IMG/VR virus record: IMGVR_UViG_3300031658_000063
Coordinates: 1 to 31,072 of that record
DNA length: 31,072 bases
Source: a virus
Direction: 5' to 3' (one strand)
This document shows positions 15,009-21,243 of the stretch, piece after piece. The notes beneath the pieces were generated by a model. It saw only the letters and a program-made list of their open reading frames with translations, ran no database searches and was not told the DNA's origin. A program made the translations under genes and the position numbers. Position 1 is the stretch's first letter. Every line of letters starts with the position of its first letter.

Positions 15009-17177
15009 ATGGCATTTACACTAGATCAAAATGTACAAGGTGCAGCAGCTTTTACAGAACCAACTGCTCCCACCAGTTCTGCTGGGTTAAGTGTGGCGGG
15101 TGGACTCTTAGGTCTGCTTGACACATTTGCAAGGGCTGAACTTGCTTCAGATAAAGCTATCGCTGTTGCAGCTAGGGCTAATGCACCAACGCAAACTGAA
15201 AAAGATAACGCAGCTTTCAAGGATATTATCCTAAAAGCTAAACAAGAAATTACTGCTGGTAAACCTAAAGATCAGGCAGCAGCAGATTATGCCTTAGACT
15301 TATCTAACCTTGGTTTAGATGCAACCCAACAGGCGGTAGCTACTCAAGTATTTGGGGAAGATGTCTTTGCCATACCTGTCGAAACTATTAATCGTCAAGA
15401 TACAGTCACCGCATTATTTAATTCTCTGGGAGAACCTACACGGCTGGGTTTGATGGCTGTTGAACAGAAAAAGGCTGCTTCGGAAGGCAATGCAATTTCA
15501 GACGATGAGGCTTACAACCTAGCAGTAGTTAACTATGCTGCCCAAACTGCGCAGTCACAAGCAGGTATCGTAGCAGGTAATGCAGATTGGCAGTCGGGTT
15601 ACGTTAATAACATTCAGACCTTAGATAAGTTCTCTGAGGCTATGTATTCGGCAATAGAAGTTGAGGTATCTGGTAAGAACTTTAGTATTGAGAATACAGC
15701 TAGGATGTATGCTACCTTTCAGCAGTTAAAAACTCAGGCAGCATTCTCTGAACCGTCAGGTACAGTAGCTCAAGAGCAATGGCAGCAGATGAAAACTAAG
15801 ATAGATGGTATAGATAACCTGTTCACACTTCTCAAAGACTACGATAAGAATTTTGTAGCAGACAAGACTGCTGCCCTTGCAGCTAACATAGCTTTGAATC
15901 TTTCAAAAGATAACCCCTTAGTCCTTTTGGCTTTTAACGATGCTGACACACTAGCAAGTATTGCCGCAGACAATGCAGGCAACATCACAAGGGCGTTAAC
16001 AGAAAGCAAAGGCCGTTTAGATAACGTAGTAAGTTATGATACACTGGACTTTGATCCAGTTGTGCTACGCCTTATGGGTCTTGAAGATACTACTACCGCA
16101 GGTGCAGGTCCAACTGCCAGTAACCTTGCGTCTGACCCAAGTATCTTCCCGACAGAATTAAGAGAAAAGTATGCACCAGCTTTAGCTAATCAAAAAGAAG
16201 CTGTAGCAGAACTAGGAAGTACTAATGCAGTCCTCTCAAGTTGTTTTGAAGGTATCGTTGACACACCAGCTGGCCTTAATGTTTGGGCTACGAGTATAGC
16301 TAAATGCTCTTTCATACTAAGTGAATTGAAGGCCCCTTCTACAACAAACCTAGACGCATTGTTTTCTCCTAAGAACATTAAGAACTTAAATCTTTTACAG
16401 GTTAAGGGTGGTCAGGAAGCGGAGACTGCTACTCTGTTACGTTCACAAATGGCTGCTGCCTTAGGGAATACGGCACGGAAGTATTCAATAGCTGCACTAG
16501 GGGAAACAAAGGCAGTACCGGGTTTAAAGATAGACCCCGTTAATCTCTCGTTTGTTCTAGATAAAAACTCAGAGCTTCAGCCGATTAATGCTGTTGCAGA
16601 ACTCTACTATGGTGGTAACTTCGAGGCACTCTGGAAAGACGGACCATTAGCATTTGAAAAACTTAAGAATACTTTAGCTGAGACAGGAAGAATAACACCT
16701 GATAGCCCTGCGTATGCTGCCTTCCTTGAAGGTACTAAGTCCATTAACCCTGCTAGGCCTGAGAGTGTGTTGTGGAGAGGTCTGGCACCCCTCTACAGTT
16801 CTTATTCTGGTATACTACCAAGGCTAAAGCAGCTAAAAGATTTTGGTAAGGCTCTTGACGTAGACACAGGTATAGATCAGATACTAAAGGTAGACAAGGT
16901 AGCCATCGACGAGGCAGTCGCAGGGGTAGTAGCTCCACGAATAGGGAATACTGAGGCTTTGGGTTTGATAGAAGAAGGTGAGACATTCCAAGACACTGAC
17001 GGTAAGTTACGTACCAAACCTGTTACAGGTACAAGAGAAAACCCATTGGTGATAAACTGGGTAGACTTAAATAATGTTGAAGCTAACGAAGAACTCTTCT
17101 CAGGTATTGGTGATGGTGTGTACTTCATTGATCCTAATGGCACCCCAAGGCGCAAACCGCCAAGGAGGGCTAACTGA
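15009..17177 (+). CDS. Probable second internal or structural virion protein
   Basis: A 722-residue Ala-rich, mostly helical, soluble protein that starts directly after the stop of the 1527-residue gene with AAGGAG upstream. An N-terminal Ala/Gly stretch (SSAGLSVAGGLLGLLDTFAR) precedes long amphipathic helices. The length is close to T7 gp15 (747 residues), although the order relative to the gp16-like gene is reversed from T7. No catalytic motif was recognised. A gp15-like core protein fits best, but a tail-associated structural protein is possible. The C-terminus ends in a basic PRRKPPRRAN. Confidence 0.6.
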   Translation: MAFTLDQNVQGAAAFTEPTAPTSSAGLSVAGGLLGLLDTFARAELASDKAIAVAARANAPTQTEKDNAAFKDIILKAKQEITAGKPKDQAAADYALDLSNLGLDATQQAVATQVFGEDVFAIPVETINRQDTVTALFNSLGEPTRLGLMAVEQKKAASEGNAISDDEAYNLAVVNYAAQTAQSQAGIVAGNADWQSGYVNNIQTLDKFSEAMYSAIEVEVSGKNFSIENTARMYATFQQLKTQAAFSEPSGTVAQEQWQQMKTKIDGIDNLFTLLKDYDKNFVADKTAALAANIALNLSKDNPLVLLAFNDADTLASIAADNAGNITRALTESKGRLDNVVSYDTLDFDPVVLRLMGLEDTTTAGAGPTASNLASDPSIFPTELREKYAPALANQKEAVAELGSTNAVLSSCFEGIVDTPAGLNVWATSIAKCSFILSELKAPSTTNLDALFSPKNIKNLNLLQVKGGQEAETATLLRSQMAAALGNTARKYSIAALGETKAVPGLKIDPVNLSFVLDKNSELQPINAVAELYYGGNFEALWKDGPLAFEKLKNTLAETGRITPDSPAYAAFLEGTKSINPARPESVLWRGLAPLYSSYSGILPRLKQLKDFGKALDVDTGIDQILKVDKVAIDEAVAGVVAPRIGNTEALGLIEEGETFQDTDGKLRTKPVTGTRENPLVINWVDLNNVEANEELFSGIGDGVYFIDPNGTPRRKPPRRAN

Positions 17178-17178
17178 T

Positions 17179-18354
17179 ATGCCTTTTGAAATCGGAGATA
17201 GGGCAGAGTTTCTTGACAAAGAGCCTGTAGTAGAGGAAGAAATTGCTTCAGTATCTTCCTTTGCTGACCTTCTTACTTTGCTAGAGGAAACTACAAGGTC
17301 AACACCTTCAGCAGACGGACCAATAGACCCTGCTCGTACCAACTACCAGTCAGGTGTAGGCCTAGAGGATAGGGTCTTTGAACCTGAGCTAGATGCTGCT
17401 GATGTAGCACCTGACTTACAGGTTATGGAGCCTCCTGTTGCTGACACAGCTGCTCCTGAGACATCCTTACGTCCTGAGGCTAGGCCTACTGGTCTTCGAG
17501 CACTAGCAGAAGAAGACGTAAACAGGGCTGCTCAAGAGTACCTAGGGATTACGGTAGACGGGGAATGGGGTAGGGGTTCCACAAGGACACTTGCGGGTTG
17601 GCAGTACCAGCAGGGCCTTCCTGTTTCAGGTGAAGTAGATGGAGCTACCATAGATGCTATGGAAAACCCCACTACAGAAGATCCTAGAAATGTAGTCGCT
17701 CGTATTAATGTTCTTAATTCAACGAGTACAGCCCCTGAGATATCTAAGGTTAAGGACTGGGCTAAGACTAATATAAAAGATCCGATGAGGGCTGCTGCTT
17801 TTGTAGCTACGGTTGAGGCGGAGACAGGTAACAGAACACTTGTCGAAAATGGCTATAGTCTAGACAGGGCAGTAGAAGTTTTTGTCACAGACAATAAAGC
17901 TATGCACGTAGGAGGAGACCTTACAAAACCTCTTACACCTAGAGGCACCCGTCGAGAAGCAAAGCTAAGGGCTTTAGGTACAGCTGCTTCAGGAGACCAA
18001 ATCTTTGACTTTATATACGGGCCTGACGCAGACGCCGTTGGGACTAGGTTAGGAAATACTTCTCCAACCGATGGATCTACGTACAAAGGAAGAGGTCTAG
18101 TCCAGATTACAGGTAAAGACAATTACAAGAGAGTTGGGGACATCTTAGGTATTGATTTAATAGCTAACCCTGAACTCGTAAATGACTCCAAGTATGCTGC
18201 TGCGGCAGCTATGGCTTACCTTTCTTTACCCGGTAAGGATTTCTTTGAAGGTACTTTAACCAGCCAGAAACTTGCCCAAGCTATAGGGCATACAGGCTCA
18301 GGAACTACAAGGTGGGCTAGAGCCACTGCTTTAAAAACAGAGATGTACCCCTAA
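17179..18354 (+). CDS. Endolysin: peptidoglycan-binding domain plus GH19-type (chitinase-like) lysozyme
   Basis: A 391-residue muramidase-type lysin. Residues 1-110 are acidic and Pro-rich with no domain visible. Residues about 112-162 form a peptidoglycan-binding repeat (YLGITVDGEWGRGSTRTLAG, then LPVSGEVDGATIDAM). Residues about 180-391 are a GH19 domain, with the catalytic region VEAETGNRTLVENGYS at 212-227 (E213/E215 and E223 are the candidate acids) and YKGRGLVQITGKDNYKRVG at 302-320. An in-frame start 35 codons upstream lies inside the previous gene. The ATG at 17179 has AAGGAGGG at 17162-17169. There is no signal peptide, so release probably needs the following holin-like protein. A virion-associated role is also possible given its place after the internal proteins. 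Confidence 0.88.
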   Translation: MPFEIGDRAEFLDKEPVVEEEIASVSSFADLLTLLEETTRSTPSADGPIDPARTNYQSGVGLEDRVFEPELDAADVAPDLQVMEPPVADTAAPETSLRPEARPTGLRALAEEDVNRAAQEYLGITVDGEWGRGSTRTLAGWQYQQGLPVSGEVDGATIDAMENPTTEDPRNVVARINVLNSTSTAPEISKVKDWAKTNIKDPMRAAAFVATVEAETGNRTLVENGYSLDRAVEVFVTDNKAMHVGGDLTKPLTPRGTRREAKLRALGTAASGDQIFDFIYGPDADAVGTRLGNTSPTDGSTYKGRGLVQITGKDNYKRVGDILGIDLIANPELVNDSKYAAAAAMAYLSLPGKDFFEGTLTSQKLAQAIGHTGSGTTRWARATALKTEMYP

Positions 18355-18776
18355 TGTTTGGCCTACCCTTAGAACTTATCACTATGCTTTTCTCTACCAT
18401 ACTAGGTGGGGTCATGTCTATGTGGGGCTTGAACACTAAGAACAAAGCTGAACAACAGAAGATGATGATTGGTGGTATGCAGGAAGCCAGAGAACATGGC
18501 AAGACTGACGTACACTTTGCATGGACACGTAGGATCATAGCCTTGTCAGCTGTGTTCGCTATCATAGTCTTACCTAAGGCGGTAGCTGTGTGGTACCCTG
18601 AGGTAAGTGTCATCGTAGGTTACACAGAAGTAAAGGGAGGGCTATTTAATTGGTTATTCGGGGGAGATGGCACAGTACAATGGCAATCAGCTAGAGGCTT
18701 TGTCATTACACCATTAGACACTCACATAGTGTCAGCAATTGTTGGATTATATTTCGGGGCAGGCTTTACAAAATGA
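18354..18776 (+). CDS. Holin-like membrane protein
   Basis: A 140-residue protein with hydrophobic segments at about residues 5-24 (ELITMLFSTILGGVMSMWGL), 59-82 (RIIALSAVFAIIVLPKAVAV) and 120-138 (IVSAIVGLYFGAGF). The first two are separated by a charged, Lys/Gln-rich loop. Its ATG overlaps the endolysin stop codon (TAATG), so the two are coupled. Position, size and topology suggest a holin that permeabilises the inner membrane at lysis, but no named holin family is recognised. Confidence 0.6.
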   Translation: MFGLPLELITMLFSTILGGVMSMWGLNTKNKAEQQKMMIGGMQEAREHGKTDVHFAWTRRIIALSAVFAIIVLPKAVAVWYPEVSVIVGYTEVKGGLFNWLFGGDGTVQWQSARGFVITPLDTHIVSAIVGLYFGAGFTK

Positions 18777-19048
18777 ATCAAGATCAAGAATGGCACCTAT
18801 CTAAGTCAGTACCACTGACCTTTGTCGTAGCTATCTTCATACAAACTGCCTCATTGGTTTGGTATGTATCCTCTTTAGACAACAGCATCAAGAACAATGC
18901 AAGAGAAATAGTAAGGCATGATGTACGTATTCAAGCCTTAGAGACTGTGGTGCAAACTCAGGCCCTTACACTAGCACGTATAGACGAGAACATTAAGTCT
19001 ATCAGAATTATGATGGAGAGGTCATCTTCTGGCAGAGACCCTAGGTAA
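18773..19048 (+). CDS. Small membrane-anchored coiled-coil protein (spanin-like or XhlA-like)
   Basis: A 91-residue protein with a short polar N-terminus, one membrane helix at about residues 11-31 (VPLTFVVAIFIQTASLVWYV), then a heptad-like coiled coil (IVRHDVRIQALETVVQTQAL) and a basic tail. This topology fits an inner-membrane spanin subunit or an XhlA-like holin partner. The ATG overlaps the previous stop (ATGA), and its own stop overlaps the next start (TAATG). Confidence 0.7.
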   Translation: MNQDQEWHLSKSVPLTFVVAIFIQTASLVWYVSSLDNSIKNNAREIVRHDVRIQALETVVQTQALTLARIDENIKSIRIMMERSSSGRDPR

Positions 19049-19221
19049 TGCTATGCGTTTTAGTATTTGTGGGGTGGGGTCACGCATGGGTTGATGGAGC
19101 AAACCAGCTGGCAAAGCTGTGCTACTATGATTGCAAATCCACTAAAACTGGTGGTTGGTACGACAGGGTGTACAGGGTTGACCACAGGCACTCTTGTCCA
19201 GCGAGGTTTGGGGACTCATGA
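19048..19221 (+). CDS. 57-residue cysteine-containing small protein
   Basis: The ATG at 19048-19050 overlaps the preceding TAA and the TGA at 19219-19221 overlaps the next ATG. The product starts with a short hydrophobic stretch (MLCVLVFVGWGHAW) that could be an export signal, followed by LCYYDC and a C-terminal SCPARFGDS, giving Cys at 3, 25, 29 and 50. The CYYxC...CP pattern resembles small proteins I associate with the lysis region of marine phages. There is no lipobox, so it is not a classical outer-membrane spanin. Function unknown; a periplasmic disulfide-linked lysis accessory is a guess. Confidence 0.7.
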   Translation: MLCVLVFVGWGHAWVDGANQLAKLCYYDCKSTKTGGWYDRVYRVDHRHSCPARFGDS

Positions 19222-19694
19222 TTGATCCATTCACAGCCTTTGCAGCAGCACAGGCAGCTGTATCAGCCATCAAGAAGGGCATACAATTAGGTAAAGACAT
19301 AGGTGGTATATCAAACGATTTATCTAAGTTTGCTACGGCTATGTCAGATATTAACTTTGCTCATAAACAAAAGGAAGACCCACCTTGGTATGCCGTACTG
19401 TTCGGAAGCCACGGCCCTAGTGCTATGGACATTTTTGCTAAGAAGAAACAAGCGGAGGCGTTACGTGCTGAGATTAAGCAGTATATTCAATTCTCTTTTG
19501 GTCAACCTGCGTGGGAAGATTTGTTGGCTATCGAAGCTCAAGTACGCAGGGAGCGTCAGAAGACTATGTACCGTAAGGCTGAGATACAGAAATCTATTAT
19601 TGAGTGGACTTTGGGTATTCTGGTGGCGATATCAGGACTTACTCTATTCGGCATTGCGTTTTATTTCGTCGGCAAGAAACAAGGGAAATGGTGA
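19218..19694 (+). CDS. Membrane protein with C-terminal anchor
   Basis: A 158-residue protein that begins MIDPFTAFAAAQAAVSAIKK, continues with a helical KGIQLGKDIGGISNDLSKFA segment and a charged middle, and ends with one membrane helix at about residues 133-152 (LGILVAISGLTLFGIAFYFV) and a Lys-rich tail. The start at 19218 overlaps the previous stop (ATGA); an in-frame TTG eight codons earlier is inside the previous gene. Proteins with this opening recur in marine phage late regions, to my recollection, but the function is unknown. It may take part in lysis or in membrane attachment of virion parts. Confidence 0.75.
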   Translation: MIDPFTAFAAAQAAVSAIKKGIQLGKDIGGISNDLSKFATAMSDINFAHKQKEDPPWYAVLFGSHGPSAMDIFAKKKQAEALRAEIKQYIQFSFGQPAWEDLLAIEAQVRRERQKTMYRKAEIQKSIIEWTLGILVAISGLTLFGIAFYFVGKKQGKW

Positions 19695-19729
19695 TGGCTG
19701 ATTACTGGGCTAACAAGGTTAAGTGGTGA
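19694..19729 (+). CDS. 11-residue minigene in a stop-start overlap chain
   Basis: The ATG at 19694 overlaps the previous stop (TGATG) and the frame encodes MADYWANKVKW before a TGA at 19727-19729 that overlaps the next ATG in the same way. AAGGGA lies 7-12 bases upstream of the ATG. Both flanking junctions have the same arrangement as the confirmed genes of this cassette, so translation is plausible. It may act as a peptide or only to carry ribosomes from the 158-residue gene to the 62-residue gene. Confidence 0.45.
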   Translation: MADYWANKVKW

Positions 19730-19917
19730 TGTGGTTAGCTGTCTTAATGGTGTGTTCATCTCCTGAAGTTTCATCCTGTGTAGTAGTAGGTAATACTAAA
19801 AACCTGTGGCCTACTGAATCCAGTTGCCAAGCCGATGTAATTACTGTAGGCAGTAAGTTTATGCTAGAAGGTTACATAGTTAAACCAAATTGTTTTAAAA
19901 TAGGGGAGAGTGTATAA
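19729..19917 (+). CDS. 62-residue exported cysteine-containing small protein
   Basis: The ATG at 19729 overlaps the stop of the 11-codon frame, and the TAA overlaps the ATG of the next gene (TAATG). It begins MWLAVLMVCSSPEVSSCVVV, a short hydrophobic segment followed by Cys residues, and has further cysteines in ESSCQADV and PNCFKIG, so four Cys in all. The hydrophobic start suggests export or membrane association. An in-frame GTG two codons upstream is less likely. Function unknown. Confidence 0.7.
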   Translation: MWLAVLMVCSSPEVSSCVVVGNTKNLWPTESSCQADVITVGSKFMLEGYIVKPNCFKIGESV

Positions 19918-20039
19918 TGTCAATGAAGAAGAAAGCACCTAAGGGTTATCACTACATGCCCAATGGAAAACTTATGAAGGATTCAGCAATGAAATCTACA
20001 AAGAAGAAGCCAGCTAAAAAGAAATCAAAAGGTTATTAA
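19917..20039 (+). CDS. 40-residue lysine-rich protein
   Basis: An ATG overlapping the previous stop opens a 40-codon frame with 15 Lys residues, starting MSMKKKAPKGYHYMPNGKLM and ending in a KKKPAKKKSKGY tail. The KGYHxMPxGKxMKD motif is a pattern I have seen at the end of small basic proteins in marine phages. It is the last gene before the bidirectional terminator. Nucleic-acid or membrane binding is possible from its charge but not shown. Confidence 0.7.
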   Translation: MSMKKKAPKGYHYMPNGKLMKDSAMKSTKKKPAKKKSKGY

Positions 20040-20085
20040 TAAAAACCCCCTAAGGATTAACTTCCAAGGGGGTTTCTTTTTGTTT
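20036..20085. terminator. Bidirectional rho-independent terminator between convergent arms
   Basis: AAACCCCC at 20043-20050 pairs with GGGGGTTT at 20068-20075, extended inward by T20051-A20067 and an inner GGA/TCC pair. It is followed by CTTTTTGTTT on the plus strand. On the minus strand the same stem is followed by TTTTTATTAA. It lies exactly between the last plus-strand gene and the last minus-strand gene (PhoH stop at 20090). Confidence 0.92.
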
Positions 20086-20089
20086 GGTA

Positions 20090-20800
20090 CTAGATGTTCT
20101 CTTTCATGAAGACCTTCACCCACTGAGCACAGACACCGCTACGAACAATATCCTCTACACCAAACTCAATGATTGGTATGGGTAACATATGTTTCTTAGC
20201 TAGGTGAATGACCTTAGACAAACCGTCAGCTTCCTTTAGGTCTGACTGCTGTACATCTCCGTTAAGAACAATGGTTGACTCCTCACCTACCCTTGTCAAC
20301 AACATCTTAAGCTCATGTGTTGTGATGTTCTGTGTTTCGTCTACAATTATGAAGGCATTGTCGAAGCTGCGCCCACGCATAAGTGCAAGAGGTGCCATCT
20401 CAATGTTTCCATTCTTGATACCTGTTTCAACTGTTCCCTTTCCTAAGTGTTTCTCTAGGACATCTAACACAGGCAAGGCCCAAGGCATTGTCTTCTCTTG
20501 AAGGTCACCCTTTAAAAAGCCTAACTCCTTACCTACCGCAACGTGCGGCCTCGTGATAACGATCTTATCAATTTGTTTAGTCGTGTATAAATCCGCTGCG
20601 AACGTAGCCGTAACGTAAGTCTTGCCTGTTCCAGCTGGGCCAAGAACGAATACTTGATTCGATGAAGATAACGCATCAATGAACTCCTTTTGTTTATCTG
20701 TCTTAGGTGTTAACCCAGATGTTTTCTTAGCACTTGCACCCTTGTAGTTTGTCTTACGCCTTGTCTTCGATGGCTTTGTAAGGGGTTCTACATTATTCAT
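20090..20800 (-). CDS. phoH: PhoH-like P-loop ATPase
   Basis: At 236 residues this is the size of phage PhoH proteins. Walker A is GPAGTGKT at residues 54-61, Walker B is AFIIVDETQN at 149-158, and RGRSF (142-146) plus VLNGDVQQSD (178-187) complete the family pattern. PhoH is a cytoplasmic ATPase/helicase-like protein, in bacteria often under phosphate control and fused or linked to RNases; its phage role is unsettled. The N-terminal 30 residues are basic. It is the last gene of the minus-strand arm, and its start overlaps the previous stop (ATGA). No Pho box is visible, so phosphate regulation is not supported here. Confidence 0.93.
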   Translation of the reverse strand: MNNVEPLTKPSKTRRKTNYKGASAKKTSGLTPKTDKQKEFIDALSSSNQVFVLGPAGTGKTYVTATFAADLYTTKQIDKIVITRPHVAVGKELGFLKGDLQEKTMPWALPVLDVLEKHLGKGTVETGIKNGNIEMAPLALMRGRSFDNAFIIVDETQNITTHELKMLLTRVGEESTIVLNGDVQQSDLKEADGLSKVIHLAKKHMLPIPIIEFGVEDIVRSGVCAQWVKVFMKENI

Positions 20801-21243
20801 AGTTTAATTAACTCCGCTTCAACGTAAGGTATATGGAAGAACTTTTCCCCATGTGTTATGTACCTGCCCTTGGCTACCCTTAGGCTTTCTTGTGTAAGCT
20901 GAGTATCTTTAATACGCCATGCCTGCTTGAAGTCAGGACGAAAGATGTAGAAGTTTAAGACACCGTTGACACCTGCATGCTTGTCTATCAGACGTTGCTT
21001 ACGTTCAGGTAAACGTATCTCTGTCCAAGATGTATCCCAGTCTGCTGTCCATGCAGTCTTAACCTCTGCCTCATTGAAGTAAGTATGGTCGCCCTTCTGA
21101 GATACTACGTCTACATTGTAGTTCTCCTCATTGTTTACGATGGTGTGGCCCTTACCCTCAAGGTGTTTAACTAAGGCCTCACGAGCAGGTGCATCGTAGG
21201 CTGCATACAAGGCTCTGCTAAACTTCTTACGTACTGCACTCAT
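20797..21243 (-). CDS. PD-(D/E)XK nuclease-like protein
   Basis: A 148-residue soluble protein. The core reads NVDVVSQKGDHTYFNEAEVK, in which D45 and E60-x-K62 match the Asp...Glu-x-Lys pattern of PD-(D/E)XK nucleases, with hydrophobic strands around each and a helix before them (REALVKHLEGKGHTIV). It may cut or bind DNA in recombination or host-DNA breakdown, but the motif is short and the substrate unknown. It lies between glutaredoxin and PhoH, overlapping both by 4 bases. Confidence 0.6.
   Translation of the reverse strand: MSAVRKKFSRALYAAYDAPAREALVKHLEGKGHTIVNNEENYNVDVVSQKGDHTYFNEAEVKTAWTADWDTSWTEIRLPERKQRLIDKHAGVNGVLNFYIFRPDFKQAWRIKDTQLTQESLRVAKGRYITHGEKFFHIPYVEAELIKL

Follow-up and report, generated by a model that had tools for sequence, protein, structure and literature searches.

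A conserved trio of small-protein genes in a Veravirus-like lysis region

The lysis region and its overlapping gene chain

The closest described counterpart of the locus studied here is the lysis module of the cobaviruses (Zobellviridae, Cobavirinae), which occur worldwide in the sea and include SIO1, ICBM1, ICBM2, CRP-4, and CRP-5. Their module lies between the internal virion proteins and a convergent PhoH arm, starts with the endolysin gene, continues with small transmembrane (TM) genes, and has a bidirectional terminator; cultured cobaviruses also possess a spanin (PMC6775973). The window, by which we mean the whole 31,072-base IMG/VR virus record analyzed, carries a cassette in the same genome position and with a similar layout (Table 1). 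The closest isolate to the cassette is Roseobacter phage CRP-5 (Zobellviridae, Cobavirinae, Veravirus), and the gene chain is part of a Veravirus-like (Cobavirinae) late operon with the lysis region at the operon end. ICBM1 has a homolog of B91 but no annotated gene of the C57 or D158 kind behind it, and the ICBM1 spanin is unmatched in the window. Two further groups of proteins invite comparison. Rz-like i-spanins and XhlA-like coiled-coil membrane proteins share with B91 a single TM segment, a coiled coil, and a lysis-region location, but no lipoprotein partner of B91 was found and its family scores are weak. GTA_holin_3TM (PF11351) and other multi-TM holins are similar to A140 in length and in their basic-flanked central TM segment, and a PF11351 holin shares the neighborhood of a D158 homolog in MW202496, whereas A140 itself lies outside PF11351.

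The initial annotation described eight genes joined by stop/start overlaps, with products of 140, 91, 57, 158, 11, 62, and 40 residues after the endolysin. A sequence check placed every overlap where it had been reported (TAATG at 18352, ATGA at 18773, TAATG at 19046, ATGA at 19218, TGATG at 19692, TGATG at 19727, and TAATG at 19915), and the product lengths are correct. The gene count has to be reduced: the 11-codon frame is not a gene, which leaves six genes after the endolysin and a 34-nt gap ahead of F62. Nor is the overlap as special as had been supposed. Prokaryotic genes are most often −4 or −1 nt apart, and genes encoding the subunits of one heteromeric complex show an excess of short overlaps (PMC10666635). 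Such overlaps occur at 8 of the 28 other junctions of the window, a set that we selected from the open reading frame list, compared with all seven in the cassette (Fisher P = 0.001) or five of six when the 11-codon scar is left out (P = 0.02). Because 1- and 4-nt overlaps are the commonest prokaryotic junction and recur at those eight junctions, the chain represents a moderate enrichment.

Table 1. Features of the cassette and their positions in the window
Feature	Position	Strand	Description	Evidence
Endolysin	17179..18354	+	PG-binding and GH19 lysozyme-like domains	PF01471, PF00182, and phrog_181 matches; start context
A140	18354..18776	+	Probable holin	Hydropathy; conserved neighborhood
B91	18773..19048	+	One N-terminal TM segment, then coiled coil	Alignment; PF24073 below cutoff; weak Rz-like PHROG matches
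C57	19048..19221	+	57 aa, predicted all-beta	114 distinct homologs; dN/dS; structure model
D158	19218..19694	+	Helical, C-terminal TM segment at ~134-152	phrog_32327 match; model
E11	19694..19729	+	Remnant of a deleted basic gene, 87-88 aa (phrog_7595)	Comparison with relatives
F62	19729..19917	+	Small, four Cys, hydrophobic N terminus	Homologs in relatives
G40	19917..20039	+	Strongly basic, 40 aa, KGYHYMPNGKLMKDS motif	Relatives in phages
Hairpin	20043..20075	.	A-run and T-run flanks	Fold, −18 kcal/mol

The endolysin is the sole member of the chain with a match to a curated lysis family, and both its catalytic and its cell-wall binding domain exceed the Pfam gathering scores. It matched PG_binding_1 (PF01471) with an E-value of 1.9e-6 and 28.4 bits (cutoff 23), GH19 (PF00182) with 3.2e-6 and 27.5 bits (cutoff 25.5) over just 41 of 232 positions, and the phrog_181 endolysin with 2e-28 over 140 of 769 positions. 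Judging from its context, the start given in Table 1, behind AAGGAGGG, is likelier than position 17074, where the open frame begins. A140 is a probable multi-TM holin by its hydropathy, with hydrophobic N and C termini and a strong TM segment at about residues 55-80. It is conserved beside endolysin-type genes in Veravirus and also occurs in Pelagibacter phages. A140 reached no curated holin family, and PF11351 was matched neither by A140 homologs nor anywhere in the whole genomes of CRP-4, -5, -6, -7, and HTVC031P; the hhalign probability of A140 against the 3-TM holin profile was 18%. We rejected A140 as a PF11351 member, the family cutoff having been missed with no Pfam match. Member-level similarity was detected to phrog_38283 (E = 5e-9), whose function is listed as unknown, together with a weak, site-specific match to phrog_9646, a family including the TM protein that follows D in locus L061. 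A PDB sequence search with A140, B91, and D158 returned nothing below an E-value of 0.05.

The B-C-D gene set

The expectation that the small frames would be conserved in related phages was borne out for C57, F62, and G40 and failed for E11. C57, for which 114 distinct homologs were collected, has four invariant cysteines (C3, C25, C29, and C50). Median pairwise dN/dS was 0.086 over 505 pairs, which are not independent of each other, and values for the window's C57 against its nearest relatives were 0.26-0.36; both C57 and D158 are under purifying selection. The C57 gene is annotated in CRP-902 and unannotated in CRP-5, -6, -7, -13, -114, and -212, making it an overlooked gene to be added to published genomes. 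An AlphaFold2 model of C57 (pLDDT 84.5, pTM 0.63) is all-beta with four strands. Export, which had been proposed for several of the small products, is doubtful for C57 because it lacks signal-peptide features and is predicted to be all-beta. None of 36 aligned relatives has K or R within the first ten residues, and conservation alternates in a strand pattern, with positions 3 and 5 invariant, 7 almost invariant, and 2, 4, 6, and 8 variable, so the N terminus appears more like a strand than like a signal peptide. Neither alignment nor model contains the basic n-region and hydrophobic helix of a Sec signal. Among solved structures the best match to C57 had a Z score of 3.8, with no convincing fold, and the best BFVD matches of C57 and D158 are phage proteins that are unnamed or uncharacterized. 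Two assignments were rejected: phrog_10092 for C57, with an E-value of 0.0035 in the best of four members and absent from 14 related genomes, and a lipoprotein reading of C57 and F62, for which the lipobox spacing is unacceptable.

D158 matched phrog_32327, listed as of unknown function, at member level (E = 5e-19). Its model, of moderate confidence (pLDDT 73, pTM 0.58), consists of helices only, and its best match among PDB structures (Z 9.0) falls among common helical bundles. D158 matched no lysis family and no structural-protein family, and none of B, C, and D reached a lysis family above a curated threshold. A SPOR match of D158 (E = 0.008 over 21 residues, below cutoff) was taken as chance. 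Homologs of D in CRP-902 (L264:2662-3129) and MW202496 (L175:4001-4465) are annotated as peptidases, a label that we rejected, as the Pfam listing for 26 homologs at E-values up to 1 comprised 25 families, none of them a peptidase family. In the bacterial and archaeal genome contigs searched, only four MAG contigs contain a D homolog.

Loci were pooled from scans anchored on D, A140, and C and from annotated isolates; the D-anchored scan selects for D, whereas the C-anchored scan does not. The C-anchored scan yielded no locus without D except where the contig ended. A D158 homolog lies near every complete C57 locus, at a distance of ≤1.4 kb for 113 of 114 distinct C sequences, with the contig ending in the remaining case. 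Where D is downstream of C, the exact ATGA at the C stop is found in 106 of 109, and this C-D junction is nearly fixed among 109 distinct sequences whereas the B-C and D-next spacings vary. At nine loci where BLAST did not detect D, a protein of 155-157 aa that begins MIEVLAL is encoded with the same overlap (D2); profile comparison shows D2 to be a distant D (hhalign probability 99, E = 8e-18, ~18% identity). Since C57 stays recognizable while D becomes D2, C may respond to something besides D. B-C-D recurs across several marine phage groups, adjoining holin, endolysin, or terminase genes. The order is C-B′-D in CRP-13 and D-B′-C in L216 and L223, which indicates that the set is kept together despite rearrangement.

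At most loci a one-TM coiled-coil protein is encoded immediately 5′ of C or D; for C this holds in ~88 of 112 distinct sequences, a count obtained by reading clusters. The families at this B position are unrelated in sequence and have their TM segment at either the N or the C terminus. Frequently the coiled coil precedes a C-terminal TM segment with positive N-flanks, an arrangement that would make the coiled coil cytoplasmic. Flanking charges likewise suggest a cytoplasmic coiled coil in several B-position families, with exceptions and ambiguous cases, and the positive-inside counts of B are weak and inconsistent among members. B91 itself has the form of an i-spanin, an N-terminal TM segment with a coiled coil for which periplasmic placement would be hypothetical, and its matches to the Rz-like PHROGs 739, 214, and 7686 are weak.

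The gene after D encodes an LPRLMM-type two-TM protein at 61 loci, the terminase small subunit at 34, a phrog_7595 protein at 21, and an Amidase_2 endolysin at three (L016, L025, and L059); the numbers refer to loci, and some contigs are represented more than once. A protein that by inspection resembles GTA_holin_3TM comes after D in CRP-114. In MW202496, a PF11351 holin is followed by a coiled-coil protein and then directly by D, placing D two genes past the holin, and in L175 and L176, D comes within a few genes after virion or injection-protein genes. Puniceispirillum phage HMO-2011 has an annotated methanesulfonate monooxygenase alpha subunit (L166:3917-4999) directly upstream of its D158 homolog.

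Possible roles of the trio

Our preferred reading, to which we assign a probability of roughly 45%, is that B91, C57, and D158 make up an accessory module at the inner membrane that belongs to the lysis region; we infer the lysis role of these middle proteins from guilt by association. The order would run from the endolysin and the probable holin A140 through B91-C57-D158 to the scar, two small accessory genes, and the terminator. C57 and D158 would be produced in coupled amounts, act together, and join B in a complex at the inner membrane, to which B and D would be anchored with the helical portions of both probably facing the cytoplasm. The trio might tune or assist lysis by holin and endolysin, for example as a timing regulator. 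Of the proposal of an unusual lysis module, what survives is a late lysis-region operon in which endolysin and holin are accompanied by conserved, unrecognized small proteins of membrane or Cys-rich type, without the export of all of them. A stronger version, in which the trio is a self-contained, undescribed envelope-disruption or lysis-control machine in a spanin or antiholin role and C57 is a disulfide- or metal-stabilized beta mini-protein made in step with D158, seems to us quite unlikely.

The trio could also be a non-lysis module of the late operon that merely lies near lysis and terminase genes and serves in the virion, in DNA ejection, or, bound to the membrane, in superinfection exclusion or anti-defense. 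The 34 loci with D directly 5′ of the terminase small subunit gene are consistent with this, as are the positions of D in L175 and L176 and its lack of a lysis match. However, direct neighbors are often Amidase endolysin, holin, or LPRLMM-type TM genes, D is also without a structural-protein family match, and we consider such a role rather unlikely. Among the listed literature titles and abstracts, none dealt directly with virion proteomics of these phages. Compact gene packing alone, in which overlaps and neighbors carry no functional message, would fit both the general frequency of −4 and −1 nt distances and the similar junctions elsewhere in the window; the near-fixed C-D junction beside variable flanking spacings, and the grouping of B, C, and D through changes of order, argue against it, and we give it little credence.

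A canonical cassette, with B91 as i-spanin and an unrecognized o-spanin, is distinctly improbable, although B91 has the appropriate form and Rz-like matches and cultured cobaviruses have a spanin. In the lysis region, a rough scan for lipoboxes in every frame detected no lipoprotein candidate on the + (coding) strand, although the same scan recovered the known ICBM1 spanin, itself without a counterpart in the window. The TM and charge layout of the B-position analogs would moreover put the coiled coil on the cytoplasmic side. The N-terminal lipobox and C-terminal TM segment of a unimolecular spanin were not found either. A spanin gene may lie outside the window, because the IMG/VR record may be incomplete; in a survey of 677 phages infecting Gram-negative hosts, 91 had no recognizable spanin (PMC6139136). 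In CRP-4, gp37 (L164:2687-3220) is a lipoprotein-like frame with the lipobox LMAGC just 5′ of the endolysin position, and the same scan finds no frame of this type in the window or CRP-5. The conserved trio, mostly unannotated, lies in the lysis region of cultured roseophages (CRP-5, -7, -13, -114, -902, and others), so that the way in which such phages open the envelope becomes testable.

A deletion scar and the distal genes

The 11-codon frame E11 was rejected as a gene: it consists of the two ends, now fused, of a gene of 87-88 codons. Close relatives, among them L002, CRP-5 (L162), and CRP-4 (L164), have that gene intact at this place, directly after D. The intact gene, encoding an 87-88-aa product that reads MAKKDPRLERAG...KMSAAYWANKVKW, belongs to phrog_7595, whose function is listed as unknown. 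What the window retains, between the end of D158 and the start of F62, is MA-DYWANKVKW, in which the start codon is joined to the final codons (YWANKVKW). The scar was not found in other IMG/VR contigs, the window's own record perhaps being outside that scan, and an assembly error at this point may be involved. Within 19218-19740 of the window, KW is the terminal residue pair of D158 and of the lost E product alike, with TGATG or TAATG coming next; this short repeat, shared by gene ends near the scar, possibly marks a site of small-gene exchange.

The hairpin is likely a bidirectional terminator between convergent arms; it was absent from the list produced by a simple consensus terminator scan. 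Beyond it, a PhoH-like protein (20090-20800, − strand) is encoded convergently to the cassette, as in cobaviruses, and beside that gene lies a 148-aa frame (20797-21243, − strand) of no known family. F62 homologs are present at 12 loci, including the window's own and CRP-5 gp31. G40 is also found in CRP-5 and, unannotated, in Pelagibacter phage HTVC026P; in HTVC026P (L177), the G40 relative is the small basic frame MVKKRRKKAPKGYHYMPDGRLMKDSDHGKKKKSRKR, within ~2380-2640.
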